From NCBI RefSeq assembly GCF_016901995.1, contig NZ_JACJLE010000018.1, positions 1 through 64,000 on the forward strand: DNA of 64,000 bases, given 5' to 3'. The translations under genes and the position numbers were made by a program. The DNA comes from Bacteroides caecigallinarum (GTDB lineage: Bacteria > Bacteroidota > Bacteroidia > Bacteroidales > Bacteroidaceae). Under the pieces are notes generated by a model that was not told the DNA's origin, did not search any database, and saw nothing but the letters and a program-made list of their open reading frames with translations. Shown piece by piece: positions 8,670-20,278 of the stretch; position 1 is the stretch's first letter; the number at the start of each line of letters is the position of its first letter.

Positions 8670-8784
8670 TAAGTTGACAAGGCTTCAGTCAACAAGTTAA
8701 TAGAAAGGCTCTCCATCCGGATGGTAGAAAACCTTGTCAACTCGTCAACTTGTCAACTCGTCACCTTTTTAAATAACATCAAAT
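8670..8784. repeat. Palindromic intergenic repeat, copy 1 (trpE-trpG)
   Basis: The gap holds GTTGACAAGG on the left and CCTTGTCAAC on the right, around the perfect 12-base palindrome CCATCCGGATGG at 8713-8724, then CGTCAACTTGTCAACTCGTC-type short repeats. A related element occurs between trpG and trpD. Possible roles are RNA folding within the operon or a REP-like mobile repeat. Confidence 0.7.
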
Positions 8785-9348: not shown

Positions 9349-9455
9349 TAAAGGTAACAAGGCTACAGTTACAAGTTGACAAGGTTCTCCATCCGGACGG
9401 TAACCTCGTCATCTTGTTAACTTGTCAACTCGTCAACTAAACAAAACATTCAACA
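9349..9455. repeat. Palindromic intergenic repeat, copy 2 (trpG-trpD)
   Basis: This gap shares CAAGGCT-CAGT, CTCCATCCGGA-GG (core CCATCCGGACGG at 9389-9400) and CTTGTCAACTCGTCAACT with the trpE-trpG gap. The order of the blocks is the same and the ends are again self-complementary, so the two gaps are diverged copies of one element. Confidence 0.7.
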
Positions 9456-11274: not shown

Positions 11275-11294
11275 AAAGCTTAGACGCAATTAGC

Positions 11295-11378
11295 GTTACA
11301 CGAACGTGTAACGGGCGGAACACAGACGTGTCACACGCGTAACACGTACGTGTAACGAGAGTGACACGAACGTGTAAC
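11295..11378. repeat. Cluster of short palindromes between trpC and trpF
   Basis: Four related inverted repeats built on ACACG-nn-CGTGT occur in about 85 bases. The first (11295-11312) has 8-base arms GTTACACG/CGTGTAAC; the third (11342-11353) is the perfect 12-base palindrome ACACGTACGTGT; the fourth (11361-11378) has ACACG-AA-CGTGT; a degenerate one lies near 11325-11340. They are separate from the other trp intergenic repeats. Confidence 0.75.
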
Positions 11379-11411
11379 ACTAAATAAATACTATCATTTA
11401 ACAATACAATA

Positions 11412-12037: not shown

Positions 12038-12817
12038 ATGGACAGAATAAACGAACTCTTCAGCAATAAGAAACATGACATTCTTTCAATCTATTTCTGT
12101 GCAGGCGCACCTAAAGCCGACAATACAGCAGAAGTGATAACCTCACTCGAAAAGAACGGAGTGGATATGATTGAGATAGGAGTACCTTTCAGCGACCCTC
12201 TTGCCGACGGTCCTGTGATTCAGAACGCGTCATGTCAGGCACTACGCAACGGCATGACACTGACCGGACTGTTCGCACAACTTGAAGGCATCCGCAACAC
12301 AGTGAGCATACCGCTCGTCCTTATGGGCTATCTCAATCCGATAATGCAATACGGAATGGAACAGTTCTTCAGGAGTTGCAGCAGCACAGGCATCGACGGG
12401 GCAATCATCCCCGACCTGCCTTTCGATGAGTACATGCAATCAGTTAAGCCAATAGCCGAAAAGTACGGCATCAAAGTGATAATGCTCATCACCCCCGAAA
12501 CATCGGAAGAAAGAATACGCCTCATCGACGATAATACCGAAGGATTCATCTACATGGTATCGTCGGCAGCCGTAACCGGAGCACAGAAGGACTTTGACGC
12601 CCGGAAACAGGAATACTTCAAGAGGATAGAAGGCATGAACCTGCGCAACCCGCGCATGATAGGTTTCGGCATCTCAAACCGCCGTACATACGAGGCGGCG
12701 GCAGCACACGCCGCAGGGTGCATCATCGGAAGCCGGTTCGTGACCCTACTCAACGAAGAAAGCGGAAACGCTGAGCGGGCGATAGAACGGCTGAAAATGA
12801 ATCTGGAAATACAGTAA
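12038..12817 (+). CDS. trpA: Tryptophan synthase alpha chain
   Basis: TrpA cleaves indole-3-glycerol phosphate and passes indole to TrpB. Starting at the ATG at 12038 gives 259 residues, the normal length. Upstream in-frame starts would overlap trpF and add about 93 residues unlike any TrpA, so they are rejected. Catalytic Glu46 and Asp57 are in IEIGVPFSDPLADGP; phosphate-binding residues are in GFGISN near the C-terminus. This is the last gene of the trpBEGDCFA operon. No strong hairpin terminator is visible straight after it; the next promoter begins within 30 bases. Confidence 0.95.
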   Translation: MDRINELFSNKKHDILSIYFCAGAPKADNTAEVITSLEKNGVDMIEIGVPFSDPLADGPVIQNASCQALRNGMTLTGLFAQLEGIRNTVSIPLVLMGYLNPIMQYGMEQFFRSCSSTGIDGAIIPDLPFDEYMQSVKPIAEKYGIKVIMLITPETSEERIRLIDDNTEGFIYMVSSAAVTGAQKDFDARKQEYFKRIEGMNLRNPRMIGFGISNRRTYEAAAAHAAGCIIGSRFVTLLNEESGNAERAIERLKMNLEIQ

Positions 12818-12844: not shown

Positions 12845-12874
12845 TTTATTTATCGTCAAAATACGCTATCTTTG
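12845..12874 (+). promoter_or_regulatory. Promoter upstream of the fimbrial cluster
   Basis: TTTA at 12845-12848, an 18-base spacer and a perfect TATCTTTG at 12867-12874. The predicted start of transcription is about 20 bases before the ATG of the leader ORF at 12899. It is the only promoter-like site I see between trpA and the membrane protein at 13199. Confidence 0.6.
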
Positions 12875-12898
12875 CGGCAGTTAATAAATTGAATTAAA

Positions 12899-13177
12899 AT
12901 GTATTCCGGTTTGCGGCCCATTTTTGGAAATATAGTAATCTGTTCAGACAATGTTCTGTTGTCTGCCGCATCCTGCATATATTTTCCTTCAAAAAAGTGT
13001 GCTGATAATTTGGATATGTGTGAGATTTGTGTAAACACACACACACACACACACACACACATTGCGACCGGCGTATCTTCGCGCGTTAATATACTTATTA
13101 TCATCAATACATGCAAGGGTGGAAACTCCTTTTTACGGGAGCTTTCCGCCCTTTTCCGTATTCGTATGCCCCGTTAA
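12899..13177 (+). CDS. Possible leader ORF containing an (AC)n repeat
   Basis: This 92-codon ORF starts just after a good promoter and resembles nothing I recognise. Residues 47-54 are four Thr-His pairs encoded by (AC)13. It crosses a terminator-like hairpin at 13115-13153 and stops at 13175-13177. Reading frame depends on repeat number. One more AC unit, or two fewer, moves the ribosome into a frame that stays open to a TGA at 13200-13202, overlapping the ATG of the next gene (ATGA). One fewer leads to TAA at 13087-13089, before the hairpin. That it is translated is inferred only from its position and openness; it could be an untranslated leader. Confidence 0.35.
   Translation: MYSGLRPIFGNIVICSDNVLLSAASCIYFPSKKCADNLDMCEICVNTHTHTHTHIATGVSSRVNILIIINTCKGGNSFLRELSALFRIRMPR
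13035..13060. repeat. (AC)13 dinucleotide microsatellite
   Basis: Thirteen uninterrupted AC units. No other dinucleotide run of this length occurs in the window. Such tracts mutate by slipped-strand mispairing and are classic phase-variation switches when they lie in or before surface-structure genes, which is the situation here. Confidence 0.9.
13115..13156 (+). terminator. Terminator-like hairpin in the fimbrial leader
   Basis: AAGGGTGGAAACTCC (13115-13129) pairs with GGAGCTTTCCGCCCTT (13138-13153) with one G-U pair and one bulged C, around an 8-base loop, followed by a short T-run. It lies between the promoter and the gene at 13199 and inside the leader ORF, so it may act as an attenuator. 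Confidence 0.55.
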
Positions 13178-13198
13178 ATCCATTAAAACAAATGTCGT

Positions 13199-13825
13199 AT
13201 GAATACAGAAATGACTATCATAGCAAGTATATTCCTGTTGCTGGGCGGACTGGCAGCGTTTCCGTTTACGCTCGATTACAGCAATACTTCATGGATGCCC
13301 CGTTGGATGCGTCCTGATGTGGACTACCTGGAACGTCCGTTCCGCTACGACTATCCCGGACGCGGAATGCAAATAATCTTCTCCCTCCTTGTCCTGTTTG
13401 TGGGAGCAATGTCACTGCTTACCTTGCTGGACAAGAACCTGTCCCAAACGGTAACTCCCGGACAGTGGTTCGACAGTATGTCACTTGTGCTTCCTGCCTG
13501 TCAGGTATCCTGTATCCTGTTCATGCGTCAGGAATACAACGATCCGTTTGAATATGCCGACCGCCTTACCGGATTCAGCATGTGGAAAGTTACAGCGGCT
13601 CTATGCCTGATACCTCTTCTGTGGTTGCCATACGTTGCCGGTCTATTGGATTCTTCCATGTACCGTTTTACGGTACTTTCCTATAATTTGCTGGCATACG
13701 CCTTTCTCGTTTACGATTATATACGGGTTTATAGAAAACGTTTTGATTATGAATACTGGACACGTACTATAATAATTTTTTCCGTTACGAGTCGCGCGCC
13801 CGTTTGGATTTTGAAAGAGATTTGA
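13199..13825 (+). CDS. Multi-pass membrane protein, probably frame-disrupted at the C-terminus
   Basis: The 208-residue product has about five hydrophobic segments (around 6-25, 57-76, 92-108, 123-144 and 150-170) joined by short charged loops. I do not recognise the family. Position at the head of a fimbrial cluster suggests a membrane-anchored regulator or accessory protein, but this is inference. The last 15 codons look wrong. At a run of six T (13777-13782) the -1 frame reads on as YYNNFFRYESRARLDFERDL and stops at 13849-13851, giving a more natural charged tail. This suggests a frameshift or a slippage site and possibly a lost cytoplasmic domain. Its ATG overlaps a TGA of one frame of the leader ORF. 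Confidence 0.6.
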   Translation: MNTEMTIIASIFLLLGGLAAFPFTLDYSNTSWMPRWMRPDVDYLERPFRYDYPGRGMQIIFSLLVLFVGAMSLLTLLDKNLSQTVTPGQWFDSMSLVLPACQVSCILFMRQEYNDPFEYADRLTGFSMWKVTAALCLIPLLWLPYVAGLLDSSMYRFTVLSYNLLAYAFLVYDYIRVYRKRFDYEYWTRTIIIFSVTSRAPVWILKEI

Positions 13826-13905: not shown

Positions 13906-15018
13906 ATGAGATGCCTGAAAAAATGGATTTGGACAGTTTTCCTTTCTTTGTTCCTGCTTCCCGCCGGGGCACAGGAACAGGCGGACACGACCTATACTTT
14001 CCGTTTCAAGACAGGAAAAGACATGTTCTATGTACCCTGGAACGGTAATGACGGGGAACTTGCGAGGCTGGAAGCCTGTGTAGAGAAGTACAAGACAGAG
14101 ATACTCGGAGGCCGGATGCCGCTGCATGTGGACGGATACTGCTGTTCGCAACCCACGGAAACGGAAAATCTCGCCATGGCGAGAATCCGCTCGAATAGAG
14201 TGAAATCGGAACTTATCGTGCGCCGGGAACTGACGGAAGAATGCTTCGTCACCCGTAACCATGCGGCAGAAGGTGATTTCGTCACCGTGCGCCTGACGGT
14301 ACCGGTAAAAGAGACAGCCGTAACGGATACGGATGCGAAAGCCCGATGCAAAGCGGAAGCCGAACGATTAGAAGCAGAAAAACGTGCCGAACAGGAACGG
14401 CTTGCCGAAGAGCAGCGCAAGGCGGAAGAAGCCCGACTTGCCGCTGAAAAGGCAGAGGCAGAGAAAGCCGCTCAACAAAACACACTTGCCGACACGCCGT
14501 CGGAAACCAAAATCACAAATGATTATCATCTCTCCCTGCGTGCCAACCTGTTGCGCTGGGCTACCCTGACACCCGATTTAGGACTTGAATGGCGCATCTG
14601 CCCGTCGTGGGGCATTGCCGTAAACGGCTCGTGGACTTCTTGGACGTGGAGCGACAAGGACCGCCGCTATGCACTCTGGGAAGTGGCTCCGGAAGTGCGT
14701 TACTACATGGGCGAGAAGAAAGCCTGGTATCTGGGTGCGATGTTCAAGGCCGGACAGTTCAACTACAAGCTCTCCGAAACGGGCAAGCAGGGCGACCTGA
14801 TGGGTGGCGGCATCACTGCCGGCTATCAGCTGCGGCTGAACAAGGCACTGAATCTTGATTTCAACCTCGGCTTGGGCTACCTGAATGCCGACTATGAGAA
14901 ATATGAAGTCATCGACGGTGTGCGCGTGCGCCGTGGCAACGAGACAAAGGACTGGTGGGGCCCCATCAATGCCGGTGTGACATTGGTATGGAAAATTGGT
15001 GCAAGCCGAGCGCATTAA
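13906..15018 (+). CDS. DUF3575 domain-containing outer membrane protein of the fimbrial cluster
   Basis: The 370-residue protein has a cleavable signal peptide ending near AGAQ (residue 22). Residues about 30-140 form an OmpA-like module, in which NLAMARIRSNRVKSEL resembles the periplasmic peptidoglycan-binding fold. A strongly charged Ala/Glu/Lys/Arg coiled coil spans about 145-192. The C-terminal half (about 205-370), with alternating aromatic strands, matches the DUF3575 beta-barrel type. Such proteins commonly precede Mfa/FimA fimbrillin genes in Bacteroides. It would sit in the outer membrane or periplasm and may anchor or help assemble the fimbria. Base composition is much GC-richer than in the genes outside the cluster. 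Confidence 0.75.
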   Translation: MRCLKKWIWTVFLSLFLLPAGAQEQADTTYTFRFKTGKDMFYVPWNGNDGELARLEACVEKYKTEILGGRMPLHVDGYCCSQPTETENLAMARIRSNRVKSELIVRRELTEECFVTRNHAAEGDFVTVRLTVPVKETAVTDTDAKARCKAEAERLEAEKRAEQERLAEEQRKAEEARLAAEKAEAEKAAQQNTLADTPSETKITNDYHLSLRANLLRWATLTPDLGLEWRICPSWGIAVNGSWTSWTWSDKDRRYALWEVAPEVRYYMGEKKAWYLGAMFKAGQFNYKLSETGKQGDLMGGGITAGYQLRLNKALNLDFNLGLGYLNADYEKYEVIDGVRVRRGNETKDWWGPINAGVTLVWKIGASRAH

Positions 15019-15088: not shown

Positions 15089-15976
15089 ATGAAAGCAAGA
15101 CAATATATAAATATGATGGGAATGGCAGCCGCCGTGCTGCTCTCTTCCTGCGTGAAGGACACGCTTTATGACACGCCGCATCCCGACTACGGGAAGATTG
15201 CGGTGACAGCCGACTGGTCGGCCCGCGGTGAGGGCATCGACATACCTGCCACATGGACGGTCAACATGGGCGACTATACGGGTACGGAGACTTCCGCCAC
15301 CCATGCCCCCGACCATCTGTTTGCTCCGGGAAGCTACACCCTTGCGGTGTGGAACCCGGCTGAAGGAATCACGGTAAGCGGCACCACCGCCACCGTTGCC
15401 GCAGCCACGGGAAACCGGGCAGGCACGGATGCCTTTGTGAACAATACTCCGGGATGGTTCTTCACCTATACGGAACAGTTGAGCATCGAGAAAGACAAGG
15501 ACTATCCGCTGACCGCCGCGATGAAGCAGCAGGTGCGCGAGCTGACGCTTGTCGTCGAGCCGACGGGTGATGCCGCCGGACGCATCACGGAGATTATTGC
15601 CCATCTGACGGGTGCAGCCGGAACACTCGACTTCGCAACCGATACCTACGGAGCCGCTTCGAGCGTCGTACTGCCCTTCACCAAGATAACCGAAGGTGAT
15701 GATGCCGGCAAGTGGAAAGCCACGGTGCGGCTGCTGGGTGTGACCGGCACGGAACAGTTGCTGACGGGCGAAATCCGCTATGCTGACGGCAACCCGACCC
15801 CCACCACGTTGAAAAGCGACCTTACGGAAGCTCTCAAGGAGTTCAACACCGGAAAGGGCGAATCGCTGACCCTCGGCGGAACGCTGGTTGAGACTCCCGA
15901 AGGCATGGAAGTGGACGGAGCCGGAATTACCGGCTGGGAAGAAGTGAAAGGTGATGATGTAAATGCCGATTTGTAA
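15089..15976 (+). CDS. Mfa2/FimB- or DUF5119-like fimbrial lipoprotein
   Basis: The 295-residue protein is a lipoprotein: a hydrophobic leader ends in LLSSC with Cys21. After it comes DTPHPDYGKIAVTADWS, a start typical of the DUF5119/Mfa2-like proteins that accompany fimbrillins, followed by two beta-rich domains (about 35-135 and 145-290). Family knowledge suggests an anchor or terminator subunit controlling fimbria length at the cell surface. Stop and next start are a few bases apart, so it is co-transcribed with the fimbrillin at 15997. The exact family is uncertain; the lipoprotein status is clear. Confidence 0.65.
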   Translation: MKARQYINMMGMAAAVLLSSCVKDTLYDTPHPDYGKIAVTADWSARGEGIDIPATWTVNMGDYTGTETSATHAPDHLFAPGSYTLAVWNPAEGITVSGTTATVAAATGNRAGTDAFVNNTPGWFFTYTEQLSIEKDKDYPLTAAMKQQVRELTLVVEPTGDAAGRITEIIAHLTGAAGTLDFATDTYGAASSVVLPFTKITEGDDAGKWKATVRLLGVTGTEQLLTGEIRYADGNPTPTTLKSDLTEALKEFNTGKGESLTLGGTLVETPEGMEVDGAGITGWEEVKGDDVNADL

Positions 15977-15996
15977 CTAATAAAATGACAGATATA

Positions 15997-16887
15997 ATGA
16001 AGACAAGATTTTTTGCACTTGCGGCGCTCGCCCTCGCACTGGCAGCCTGCAATAACGACAACGAGATTCTGAACAATGACGGTCCCGTGGCCGCCCGGTT
16101 TATCGCCGACATCGCCCCCGCCACCCGCGCCAGCGGAACCACATGGGATAACGGAGACCGCATCGGCGTCACCGACATCGGCAACGATACCCGGTACGGC
16201 AACGTGCCTTTCATCCTGAAGAACGGGAAATTTGAGGCAGAAGAAAAGGTCATCTATATCGAAGATGTAAAGACCCATACTTTCCGCGCCTACTATCCGT
16301 ACAACGCAGCGGGAGGCACCCTCGCAGCCACGACCGATGCCACGGCGCAGCAGAACCAGCCTGCCATCGACTTCCTCTTTGCTTCAGGAGCCACGGGAGA
16401 CAAAAACAGCCCGGAGGTGAGCTTCACCGACAAAACGGCTGAAGGCGGCGCAGACAACTCCTTCCACCACCGCATGAGCCGGATAACCCTTACCTTCGAG
16501 GCGGGCGACGACGTGGATTTCAGTGTGGTCAAGCCTGAACGTTACACGCTGGGCGGATTGATACTCACCGGTACGTTCAACACGGCCGACGGCATTGCCA
16601 CCGCAGACGACGGGGCACAGACCGGAGAACTGACCATGGAGCTGGCCGACGGCAACCTCACGTCATCGGTCATCCTCTTCCCGCAGACAGCTGCATCCCT
16701 GCCGTTGACTGTGAATTACAGAAGTCAGAATTATCGTGCCACGCTCACCGTGCCCGAAGGCGCACTGCAGGCGGGCAACAACTATACCTATACCGTCAAG
16801 GTACGCAACAAAAACCTTGAAGTCAGCGAAGCCACCATTGCAAAGTGGAACGACGTAGACGGCGGAGAAGTGGGCGCTGACCTGTAA
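15997..16887 (+). CDS. Fimbrillin family lipoprotein (Mfa1/FimA-like)
   Basis: A 296-residue lipoprotein with lipobox LALAAC (Cys18) when started at the ATG at 15997, whose leader is a better signal peptide than that from the ATG at 15985. The mature part has the fimbrillin-like pattern: PATRASGTTWDNGDRIGV (about 42-59), the AYYPYN strand (about 95-100), HHRMSRITLTFEAGDD (about 156-171) and the C-terminal YTYTVKVRNKNLEVSEATIAKWND. In type V pili the lipidated N-terminus is removed by an Arg-gingipain-like protease before donor-strand polymerisation; arginines at 44 and earlier could serve, but this is inference. It is probably a stalk or tip subunit. Confidence 0.8.
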   Translation: MKTRFFALAALALALAACNNDNEILNNDGPVAARFIADIAPATRASGTTWDNGDRIGVTDIGNDTRYGNVPFILKNGKFEAEEKVIYIEDVKTHTFRAYYPYNAAGGTLAATTDATAQQNQPAIDFLFASGATGDKNSPEVSFTDKTAEGGADNSFHHRMSRITLTFEAGDDVDFSVVKPERYTLGGLILTGTFNTADGIATADDGAQTGELTMELADGNLTSSVILFPQTAASLPLTVNYRSQNYRATLTVPEGALQAGNNYTYTVKVRNKNLEVSEATIAKWNDVDGGEVGADL

Positions 16888-16914
16888 GACATTATTAATT
16901 AAGAATGAAGAATT

Positions 16915-18486
16915 ATGAGACATAGATTATTTATCCCCGCAGCCACCGCGCTGCTGTTCGCCCTCGCCGCCTGCACGCAGGACGATCTCGGCGGCGGCAC
17001 GTTGCCCGAAGGCGAGTATCCATTGGTAATCCGCGCCACCGGCCTGCAAGCCGTGGCAACCCCTGCCTCACGCGCCACCGTGGACGGCGACTGGCAGGGC
17101 GTACAGACCGTAGCCCTCAGCGTGGGCGGCACGGTGAAGGAATACGATGTGACGGCATCCGATGCAGACGACTACCGCTCCGCCACCCTGAGCAGCGACA
17201 CCGACCCCTTCTGGTGGACAAGCCGTGAGGACATCACCGTTTCGGCATGGTGGCCATACGGCACCACGATGCCCGATGTGGTAGTAAAGGCCGACCAAAG
17301 CACGAAGGAAGGCTTCGAGGGCAGCGACTTCATCTCCGCCGAAGCCCAGGCAGTGCAGTTCGACAACCCGACGCTTGAGTTCAGCCACCGCACGGCGCGT
17401 ATAACGCTTCTTCTTAAGCCGGGAGACGGCATCACGAGCGTGACGGGAGCAGATGTTTCCGTGACCGGCCTGGGCACGGATAACGGCAATCCCGCCACTA
17501 TCAAAACATACGCGCCGGGCAGCGACACCTACGAAGCCCTCACAGCACCGCAGACCGTGAAGGCGAATACCCCGTTCATACAGGTGGATTTAGGCGGAGG
17601 CACTTACTATTTCCGTCCGCATAGCGATGTGGTGCTGGCAGCCGGCAGCCGCTACACCTACACCGTCAATGTGAACGCCACCGGCTTGACGCTGGAGGGC
17701 TGCACCATCGGCGGCTGGACTGACGGCGGCAGCGAGAGCGGCACGGCAGAGGATTTGGGCTATTTCATACAGGACGACGGCAGCTACACAGTCTACACCG
17801 CTAACGGCCTGAAGGAATGGGCAGAGGCTGTGCAGACCGACCCTACCATCAACTGCACCCTCACCGCCGACATTGACCTGACGGGCAAGACATGGACACC
17901 GATAGGCAGTGGTTTCAGTTCTAGTACCGGTTATCAAGGCACCTTCGACGGACAGGGACACCGCATCACGGGGCTGGCCATCACTACGGACAATCCGCAG
18001 GGTGAGAGTGCTGCGTTGTTCGGCGGTATCGGCGGCAACGGCGAGGTGAAGAACCTGCAACTGGTGGATGTGGACTACGATGTGCAGCAAAACGGTGCGG
18101 CCGGCGGCATAGCAAATGCCAACTACGGCACCATTACTGCCTGCTCCGTAAATGGAGATATTACTGCAAATAGCGGTGATGTCGGTGGCATTGCGTCTAT
18201 CAACCGCGGTAGCATTATTGGCTGTTGGTTCGATGGAAATTTAACAACGAATTATGCTAATGGCGGCATCGCTGCTTACAACTATAGCACCATCACCGCC
18301 TGCTTCTATGGCGGAAACGCCGGACATGGAGCAAATAATCAAGGAGGAACGGTAGGTGCCACGAAGGTGAAGGGTACGACCACTTGGCAGGACGCTGTTG
18401 GTGGCATGAACGCTGCCCTTACCGACAACGACTACCAGTGGGTACTCGGTACCGACGACCTGCCCGTACTGCAAAAGAAACAATAA
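16915..18486 (+). CDS. Fimbrillin-like lipoprotein with C-terminal GLUG repeats (paralog 1)
   Basis: 523 residues, lipobox FALAAC with Cys20. Residues about 35-270 are a fimbrillin-like region: SRATVDGDWQGV, WWTSREDITVSAWWPY, FSHRTARITLLL and the YTYTVNVNATGLTLEGCTIGGW strand. Residues about 285-480 carry a predicted right-handed beta-helix with GLUG-type units, for instance AAGGIANANYGTITACSVNGD (read as GG-IA-N-GTI-C) repeated three times. This architecture fits a fimbrial tip adhesin displayed on the cell surface. The following gene at 18509 has the same domain order and many shared strings, so the pair arose by tandem duplication. Strongly GC-rich. Confidence 0.78.
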   Translation: MRHRLFIPAATALLFALAACTQDDLGGGTLPEGEYPLVIRATGLQAVATPASRATVDGDWQGVQTVALSVGGTVKEYDVTASDADDYRSATLSSDTDPFWWTSREDITVSAWWPYGTTMPDVVVKADQSTKEGFEGSDFISAEAQAVQFDNPTLEFSHRTARITLLLKPGDGITSVTGADVSVTGLGTDNGNPATIKTYAPGSDTYEALTAPQTVKANTPFIQVDLGGGTYYFRPHSDVVLAAGSRYTYTVNVNATGLTLEGCTIGGWTDGGSESGTAEDLGYFIQDDGSYTVYTANGLKEWAEAVQTDPTINCTLTADIDLTGKTWTPIGSGFSSSTGYQGTFDGQGHRITGLAITTDNPQGESAALFGGIGGNGEVKNLQLVDVDYDVQQNGAAGGIANANYGTITACSVNGDITANSGDVGGIASINRGSIIGCWFDGNLTTNYANGGIAAYNYSTITACFYGGNAGHGANNQGGTVGATKVKGTTTWQDAVGGMNAALTDNDYQWVLGTDDLPVLQKKQ

Positions 18487-18508
18487 CGAACCCTAAACAA
18501 CACGCATC

Positions 18509-20278
18509 ATGAAACGAACAACCATCCATATATCCGCAGCCCTCGCCCTGCTGCTCGGCTTTACTGCCTGCACGCAGGACGAAGCGGGCTTCCTGCCGGA
18601 AGGGGCGGAAGGCACACCCGTCGTCTTCACCGCCACGGGGCTGAACCCCGACGCGACAGCCACCGCCGGTACCCGTGCCCCCGTGGACGGCAACTGGGAA
18701 GGGGTCTCTTTAGTGGGCGTCCTGATTGGCGGCACGGTGAAGGCATACAATGTGACGCCCTCCACCTCCGACAACACCGGCGCCACGCTGACCTCCGATG
18801 ACCCGCACTACTGGACCAACCACAATAACATCACCGTCACGGCGTGGTGGCCCTACACCGCTGGCGAGACAACCCCGCCTGCCGTGAAGGTAGCTGCCGA
18901 CCAAAGTGCCCGGAAAGACTTCGAGGGCAGCGACTTCATCGTAGCCGAGGAACAGACGGTGAGCTACGGCAACCCCACGCTCCGCTTCACCCACCGCACG
19001 GCACGGGTGACCGTCGTTCTGACGGACTACACCGAGGGGCTGAAGTCCGTGTCGCTGACGGGCCTCTCCACCGAGAATGGCAACCCGGCTGTAATCGCCC
19101 CGCATGACAAGGGCGGCGACACCTACACCGCCCTCGTCGCCCCGCAAAGTGTGGCAACGGGCACGACATTCATTACCTGCAAATTCACCAACGGCAAGGT
19201 CTTCGTCTATAAGATGAAGAACGATACCGACTGGCAGGCGGGCGAGGAATATACCTACACCGTCTCCCTCGCTGCGGCAAAAGACCCGGGATACACCATA
19301 GAGGGCGACGGCAGCTACACCGTCACCACCGACGACGGGCTGAGAAATGTAGCCAAGCTGGTGAACGAAGAGGGGAAGACCGACATCGACATCACCCTGA
19401 CCGGCGACATCACCCTGACCGGGGAGTGGACGCCGATAGGAACTGAAAGCCGACCATACACCGGCAACTTCGACGGCGGCGGCCATACCATCACGGGGCT
19501 GAAGATTGACCAATCGGGAACGGACAATGTAGGACTGATTGGCTGTCTCGACAGTGGAGGTAAGGTGCAGAACGTGACGCTGACAAATATAAGCGTATCC
19601 GGTGCAAACTGCGTCGGCGGCATTGCGGGACAGAACTATGGCACTGTAGAGAATTGCTCGGTCAATGGCACGGTGACAGGTAAGGGGTTCACCGATACCG
19701 GCGGCATTGCGGGATCAAACTATGGCACCATCTCCGGCTGCTCGGCGGAAGGGACTGTGATGGGTAGTGTCAATGTCGGCGGAATAGCCGGAGGCAGCTA
19801 TCTCGGGGTAATCATCGATGGCTGCCATTCTACAGCGGCTGTATCGGGCAGTTTATGTGTCGGCGGCGTGCTGGGCAACCTGGGAAACAATAGCTTCCTC
19901 ATGGCCTGCTACTCCACGGGCAACGTGACTGTCACGAGTACGGATGGTTCCTTTGTCGGCGGTGTGGTGGGAATTAACTCCCAAGGTACCGTAACCGGCT
20001 GCTACCACGCCACGGGCGAAATTACCAGCTTAGGAGGAGGTAGAATCGGCGGCATCGTGGGTGAAAATTACATCGGAACTGTCGCTGCCTGCTACTGGGA
20101 CAGCAATCTCAGCAGCGGCACCGGTTCTAATAACGGCAAGGATGACACTCATAAGGTGGACGGCACTGACGTTACCTGGCAGACGGCAGTTGTCGCCATG
20201 AACACCGCCTTGCAGAGCGCAGGCTCAGGTTGGCACTACGTACTCAACGGAGCGCTGCCGACATTGAAGAAACAGTAA
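18509..20278 (+). CDS. Fimbrillin-like lipoprotein with C-terminal GLUG repeats (paralog 2)
   Basis: 589 residues, lipobox LGFTAC with Cys21, tandem paralog of the gene before it (shared TQDE-type start, PVDGNWEGVSLVGVLIGGTVKAY, EGSDFI, FTHRTARVTVVL). The N-terminal fimbrillin-like part runs to about residue 262; the C-terminal part (about 270-560) holds an additional number of GLUG units, seen as GGIAGQNYGTVENCSVNG, GGIAGSNYGTISGCSAEG and later variants at intervals of about 24-30 residues. It ends with a WQTAVVAMNTAL...LPTLKKQ tail like that of paralog 1. More repeats than paralog 1 suggests repeat-number evolution of a surface adhesin. Confidence 0.78.
   Translation: MKRTTIHISAALALLLGFTACTQDEAGFLPEGAEGTPVVFTATGLNPDATATAGTRAPVDGNWEGVSLVGVLIGGTVKAYNVTPSTSDNTGATLTSDDPHYWTNHNNITVTAWWPYTAGETTPPAVKVAADQSARKDFEGSDFIVAEEQTVSYGNPTLRFTHRTARVTVVLTDYTEGLKSVSLTGLSTENGNPAVIAPHDKGGDTYTALVAPQSVATGTTFITCKFTNGKVFVYKMKNDTDWQAGEEYTYTVSLAAAKDPGYTIEGDGSYTVTTDDGLRNVAKLVNEEGKTDIDITLTGDITLTGEWTPIGTESRPYTGNFDGGGHTITGLKIDQSGTDNVGLIGCLDSGGKVQNVTLTNISVSGANCVGGIAGQNYGTVENCSVNGTVTGKGFTDTGGIAGSNYGTISGCSAEGTVMGSVNVGGIAGGSYLGVIIDGCHSTAAVSGSLCVGGVLGNLGNNSFLMACYSTGNVTVTSTDGSFVGGVVGINSQGTVTGCYHATGEITSLGGGRIGGIVGENYIGTVAACYWDSNLSSGTGSNNGKDDTHKVDGTDVTWQTAVVAMNTALQSAGSGWHYVLNGALPTLKKQ

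Follow-up and report, generated by a model that had tools for sequence, protein, structure and literature searches.

A fimbrial gene cluster headed by a short leader ORF lies on the forward strand of the window, the 64,000-nt stretch of Bacteroides caecigallinarum DNA (contig NZ_JACJLE010000018.1, positions 1 to 64,000) that we analysed. Genes of a trp operon, named by reading their translations, precede a -7 promoter box of the Bacteroides type TAnnTTTG at 12867-12875 (TATCTTTGC; core TATCTTTG at 12867-12874). The box fits the Bacteroides consensus TANNTTTGY given in the passages of PMC12632263 used here, and its activity is predicted from this match. The leader ORF, taken from the ORF list, starts with the ATG at 12899 and ends with the stop codon at 13175-13177 (12899-13177, 92 aa). 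Inside it, the repeat listing places an AC tract of 27 nt, (AC)13.5, at 13035-13061, which is read as Thr-His codons and is the longest dinucleotide tract of the window among those listed. Directly 5' of the tract, at 13008-13034, is a conserved motif, ATTTGG...TTTGTGTAA, which codes for (D)NLDMCEICV(N) and was recognised from alignments and a table of 57 motifs. Short tandem repeats are also present between the trp operon genes, at 11292-11380, 8733-8767 and 9408-9438.

The frames past the tract end at three different places, as given by the three-frame stop list. The present frame crosses a terminator-like hairpin at 13115-13153 and stops at 13177, +116 past the tract. With one AC unit more, the leader would end at a TGA at 13200-13202 (+141), which overlaps the ATG at 13199; with one unit fewer, it would end early, at a TAA at 13087-13089 (+28) within GCGCGTTAA, 25 nt 5' of the hairpin. 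The region 13100-13175 folds with -27.1 kcal/mol (z -4.5), and none of 200 shuffles folded equally well. The hairpin is absent from the output of a simple terminator scan, perhaps on account of its short T tail. No competing anti-terminator was seen in the minimum-energy fold of the leader, the one fold considered, and an Rfam scan returned no leader family, its five weak matches being of eukaryotic miRNA or snoRNA type and all below gathering scores. The preliminary description had listed the promoter, the 92-codon ORF, the AC tract, the hairpin and the three stops; all of its coordinates and its unit arithmetic proved correct, the tract being precisely 13.5 units. A CGCGCGTTAA-like stretch, at 13080-13089 in the window, recurs 3' of the tract in many related leaders, often with an early stop, as judged by eye.

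The first gene behind the leader (13199-13825, from the ORF list) encodes a membrane protein of 208 aa. Its B. mediterraneensis relative (locus L034) has 379 aa and a longer C-terminus. About 480 nt of L034 have no counterpart there in the alignment, so that a deletion has probably removed the C-terminus of the window's product. Domain scans identify the genes that follow as a DUF3575 protein gene (13906-15018), a gene for an Mfa2-type fimbrial anchor (15089-15976) and three Mfa_like_1 fimbrillin genes (15985-16887, 16915-18486 and 18509-20278, spanning 15985-20278), in agreement with the earlier view that the downstream cluster is fimbrial.

Distribution of the leader family

A pattern-limited protein search with the first gene among named GTDB contigs found two loci, both on one Bacteroides mediterraneensis chromosome. 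A DNA search of 61 genomes of the genus found relatives of the leader, some of them ahead of different genes. AC tracts of at least 9 units are present in 16 of these 61 genomes, and in 12 of the 16 a leader-family tract could be placed, 11 through the motif and one (G041) through downstream similarity only; two genomes, G001 and G021, have AC tracts without the motif. Since the alignment revealed a conserved stretch 5' of the tract, we built two sequence-only models, R1 and R2. At E 0.01, R1 matched 32 genomes among 399 from the family, in 11 of 30 genera, and the weakest of these matches are not all real. At E 0.001, R2 matched 14 of 393 genomes in a sample of the order (12 of 206 genera), spread over nine further families according to tool labels, as well as 16 of 119 genomes in the genus of G201; at E 0.01 it matched 15 of 61 genomes in the window's own genus, some of these being chance matches. 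Across the phylum, R2 matched 3 of 296 genomes, two of them in the window's family; the third match (L148), outside the family, has no AC tract and was rejected. The genome samples of the two models overlap, and weak members are lost under strict filters. Seven matches lie in one genome (G907) and three in each of G201, G266 and G840. A distant search of plasmids with the leader gave no match, and four viral contigs that carry the motif core were rejected by eye as unrelated.

In most members the leader peptide reads ...NLxMCxxC(V/I/L)NTH(TH)n or a close variant. Judged from sequence, this leader, NLxMCxxCVNTH followed by an AC tract, is a family that stands ahead of operons for fimbriae and other surface proteins in some of the sampled Bacteroidaceae genomes and, more thinly, in the Bacteroidales. 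For counting, 80 sites that were distinct in the 160 nt around the motif were reduced to 74 that were kept, 61 with at least 120 nt downstream and 45 non-redundant loci. Five weak matches (L040, L050, L103, L104 and L112) and a minus-strand match in L086 were left out before the counts. Four further sites were never in the list of 80: L099 and L078, whose motif contains an indel and which both show the frame pattern described below, and L077 and L110, which are chance matches in or beside other sequence.

Among the proteins encoded downstream in the relatives (41 scanned of 45 listed; first 25 of 37 families shown), we found DUF3575 in nine, OmpA in six, LRR_4 in four, ankyrin repeats in three, and BspA-type LRR and Mfa_like_1 in two each, the remaining proteins having single-family matches or none. 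NCBIfam gave no clear equivalog for the scanned proteins. The N-termini of the first genes mostly resemble a signal peptide or a lipoprotein start, as judged by eye. Three loci (L002, L030 and L031) share a leader and have a first gene cut to 45 codons, after which come a protein of 49 aa and an Mfa-like lipoprotein (with LRR in L002). These are different cassettes behind one leader. In place of fimbrial genes, four other loci (L090, L121, L129 and L135) have behind the leader a gene for a small protein and, where scanned, one with ankyrin repeats.

Stop codons in the three frames

We defined the stop pattern without hairpin calls: one or more frames stop no further than 45 nt from the tract, and one or more remain open past 95 nt. 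This pattern is kept in 43 of the 45 non-redundant loci, compared with 21.0 (sd 3.1) in dinucleotide shuffles, none of 1000 of which reached as high a count. The frame pattern in homologous loci was a check put forward in the preliminary description, and the result favours its proposal. The prediction that an early-stop frame and a hairpin-crossing frame should be found everywhere was recorded after about 23 loci and before further fetching; loci found before it keep the pattern in 20 of 21 cases (10.5 expected) and loci found after it in 23 of 24 (10.6 expected). Control windows placed 200 nt and 400 nt further gave 22/42 (17.4 expected) and 20/41 (19.6 expected). Open frames alone also exceed chance in the shifted windows, which lie partly within genes (48 vs 27.3 and 64 vs 36.9), but the early stop is absent from 12/42 and 17/41 of these windows as against 0/45 at the leader. 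The first stops of the three frames in the 45 loci are bimodal, with 66 closer than 50 nt, 5 at 50-70 nt, none at 70-90 nt and 64 beyond 90 nt.

A version of the pattern that uses called hairpins is kept in 40 of 45 loci (20.1 expected), and in 18 of 20 (9.8 expected) where the hairpin is strong. By tract length, the pattern is present in all 40 loci with tracts of at least 15 nt and in 19 of the 21 with shorter ones (61 loci). Two of the five weak loci dropped beforehand pass (L103 and L112) and three fail, and counting all five would give 45/50. As raw counts, a stop lies 0-5 nt from the following ATG in 10 of 55 loci, and an open frame continues in frame into a downstream ORF of at least 100 aa in 14 of 55.

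Folding, promoter and coding constraint

The RNA between 40 and 125 nt past the tract folds with a mean z of -2.43, and 21 of 45 loci lie below -2; the control stretches reach this value in 2/45 (0-50), 1/42 (250-335) and 3/41 (400-485) cases. This excess over the control windows indicates that the hairpin is a feature of the family, strong in about half of the loci. Covariation in the stem showed no excess over shuffles in an alignment whose 3' arm is off by one in some rows. Of 61 leaders that differ in their upstream DNA, 49 have a -7 box there, compared with 10.5 expected.

Leader dN/dS values, all point estimates computed without the motif, show signs of coding constraint. The window's leader gave 0.36 against the L007/L034 group and 0.74 against L074, and values of 0.40 (L109/L122), 0.44 (L070/L071) and 0 to 0.42 (copies within G907) were obtained elsewhere. 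Other pairs lie near or above 1, namely L057/L120 (0.86), L122/L132 (1.04), L075/L132 (about 1) and L075/L137 (1.2), and L072/L085 reaches 3.7 on 7 changes only. The dN/dS values below 1 in most pairs, together with the promoter box, support expression of the leader, and on balance the leader ORF looks translated. Within the motif, third codon positions are nearly fixed: Leu is TTG in 56/57, the V/I/L codon is xTA in 57/57 and Asn is AAC in 54/57, in a codon table that omits L013, L068 and L086 (ORF in another frame) and sites scoring below 30. The motif, 13008-13034 in the window, thus appears to be under constraint at the nucleotide level beyond the demands of coding.

Variation of tract length

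Tracts at related sites range from 7 to 63 nt. When near-identical leaders (>90% alike on both sides, counted by place) are compared, the tract differs in length in 22 of 25 pairs and in frame in 16 of 25; the pairs share members and come from species-level genomes, so that the differences are those between loci or genomes. With identical copies collapsed beforehand, 16 of 18 pairs differ, 10 of them in frame. The repeat-length variation that the preliminary description had called for is therefore present at this level. One pair lies on a single B. mediterraneensis chromosome, where two copies are 98.3% alike over 4,150 columns and have tracts of 39 and 43 nt, which implies opposite predicted states, one read-through and one early-stop. 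Two loci from different genomes, L090 and L121, differ by a single unit and likewise have opposite predicted states. As assembled, 27 of the 40 long-tract loci are in the early-stop frame and 13 in a read-through frame.

Tracts of 11 nt or less, found at 23 of 74 sites, should not slip fast; short-tract loci still keep the frame pattern, and such sites may be locked alleles. At 12 of the 74 sites (L013, L059, L066, L068, L072, L073, L096, L098, L100, L101, L102 and L138), the end of the contig coincides with the tract, except in L096, where 6 nt more follow. This fits a mixture of lengths as well as assembly repeats and is proof of neither.

Discussion

We consider it probable that the locus is a phase-variable transcription attenuator in which slippage of the AC tract sets the frame of the leader. 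RNA polymerase would start near 12880 and the ribosome at the leader ATG at 12899. In the frame ending at 13089, the ribosome would come off 25 nt before the hairpin, which would then form and end most transcripts, leaving the fimbrial cluster at a low level. In the other two frames, the ribosome would translate across the hairpin region as far as 13177 or 13202, so that hairpin formation would come too late and polymerase would reach the fimbrial genes at a high level. Slippage during replication would shift a cell from one frame to another, so that a growing population would be expected to switch. The genome as assembled would be in the high, read-through state. The earlier proposal of slippage-set attenuation gains support for its core idea from the kept frame pattern (43/45 vs 21.0) and the varying tract length; the novelty claimed for it does not hold, given the Streptococcus precedent discussed below. 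The third expression level that it proposed, by translational coupling at the TGA/ATG overlap, stays conjectural, with a comparable overlap counted in 10 of 55 loci.

The near-fixed third positions of the motif are what a regulated, non-stochastic leader would lead one to expect. The motif, AATTTG...TTTGTRTAAACACAC, would then be a site for stalling, frameshifting or protein binding, and the AC tract a by-product of its ACAC end. Members with short tracts, which keep both the motif and the frame pattern, also point this way. However, slippage is needed anyway to account for tracts that reach 63 nt and vary among near-identical copies, and the frame pattern holds in every locus with a tract of at least 15 nt (40/40). 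We therefore regard such a leader as unlikely, and slippage-set attenuation as the better account of the locus.

Repeated Thr and His codons in a leader peptide 5' of a terminator-like hairpin also recall a classical amino-acid attenuator, in which a shortage of charged tRNA-His or tRNA-Thr would make the ribosome stall at the Thr-His run, and the stall would set the fate of the hairpin. The his leader attenuator follows the same principle as the trp one. The identified downstream genes, however, are mostly for surface proteins: the window's cluster is fimbrial, and no His or Thr synthesis genes were found in it or among the families listed for the first genes of the 41 relatives. A tract range of 7 to 63 nt gives no fixed codon dose, no anti-terminator competes with the hairpin in the one minimum-energy fold considered, and this kind of attenuator gives no reason to expect the kept pattern of stops in three frames. 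It is improbable here.

Plain translational phase variation would make the hairpin incidental, the tract only fusing an N-terminal extension to the downstream gene or unfusing it. The 14 of 55 loci with an in-frame run into a downstream ORF of at least 100 aa would suit it. No fusion frame was found in the window or in the other 41 of the 55 loci, however; the first genes mostly have a signal-peptide-like or lipoprotein-like start of their own (by eye), and hairpins are enriched between tract and gene. We give this explanation very little weight. A neutral microsatellite within an untranslated leader is scarcely credible, as the frame pattern and the promoter box are above chance, dN/dS is mostly below 1 and, by tool labels, nine further families of the order also have the motif.

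DNA inversion may add a further layer at the locus. We considered it because Bacteroides surface loci are known to switch by inversion, and the window does contain two imperfect inverted pairs, one of 18 nt (89%) with arms at 12598-12615 and 13230-13247 and one of 14 nt (93%) with arms at 12760-12773 and 13254-13267. Both span the promoter and the leader, with one arm at the end of the trp operon and the other in the first gene of the fimbrial cluster. Two genomes with the same upstream trp DNA (G003 and G013), however, show the stretch in one orientation, that of the window.

Slippage-set attenuation itself has a close precedent. In Streptococcus gallolyticus, according to the passages of Danne et al. 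(2014, PMC3894217) used here, the short leader of pil1 ends 39 bp before a terminator and gives low pili, while changes in repeat number that shift the frame lengthen the leader and lead to high pili; mutants of the hairpin and of the start codon agree, and a mutant with stops in all frames shows one peak that lies a little higher than the low state. The preliminary description had taken the combination of a repeat with leader-ORF attenuation to be new, a claim that this work anticipates. From the same passages, the pil1 and pil3 loci and the window have in common a promoter, a leader ORF with a slippery repeat, a terminator hairpin (terminator-like here) and a pilus or fimbrial operon. In both cases the short frame stops before the hairpin (by 39 bp in S. 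gallolyticus, by 25 nt in the window) and the other frames extend to it or past it; a genome can have several such loci, as pilus loci there and as leader copies here; and most cells of S. gallolyticus are low, as 27 of the 40 long-tract loci here are early-stop. The repeat unit differs, with GCAGA pentamers in S. gallolyticus and an AC dinucleotide here, as do the fibres, which are sortase-built streptococcal pili in the former and Bacteroidales fimbriae in the latter. A conserved peptide and nucleotide motif and a family in several genera are features of the Bacteroidales leader. The S. gallolyticus mechanism is proven by mutation in the passages used, whereas that of the Bacteroidales leader is predicted from sequence. 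Since repeat unit, genes and phylum differ, we take the Bacteroidales leader to be convergent.

Other systems share part of this logic. In the passages used of PMC12632263 and PMC11868660, phase variation of gut Bacteroidales is described as DNA inversion. The invertible promoters of Bacteroides described there control surface genes stochastically in the same order, as proposed here, but through inversion between inverted repeats at the promoter, while the repeat here lies within the leader ORF. In the trp leader attenuator, as discussed in the passages of PMC3894217, translation of the leader peptide decides whether the terminator forms. Amino-acid attenuators thus resemble the present proposal in that leader translation decides termination; they sense charged tRNA, whereas the likely input here is the frame set by the repeat. 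Among the matches listed in a search of open-licence PMC papers, with subscription papers and preprints outside its scope, we found the S. gallolyticus case and no Bacteroidota case, and a look-up of terms found no such case in the parts covered of PMC3711429, PMC11868660 and PMC12632263. As far as open-licence searches reach, what is new relative to S. gallolyticus is the other phylum, the dinucleotide tract, the conserved leader motif and the multi-copy family.

Since relatives in gut Bacteroidales keep the frame pattern, the leader probably switches surface fibres on and off, as the proven one in S. gallolyticus does. More speculatively, and with considerable doubt, such leaders could be movable switches of an old class in Bacteroidales, standing in up to seven copies per genome before different surface operons and generating through slippage a combinatorial code of the surface that does not depend on inversion. 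The motif would then be a second layer, for example by letting the ribosome hop two bases on ACAC (an off-genotype leak) or as a stall or binding site that tunes the switch. If slippage-set attenuation is correct, the reason for the conservation of the leader motif becomes a directly testable question, and the mechanism, for which our searches met a single published Streptococcus species, would have a second and distant case, here in the form of a family. Fimbrial and adhesin-like operons of these bacteria would be preceded by a second, repeat-based switch, and its on/off state would be predictable from genomes or metagenome reads.
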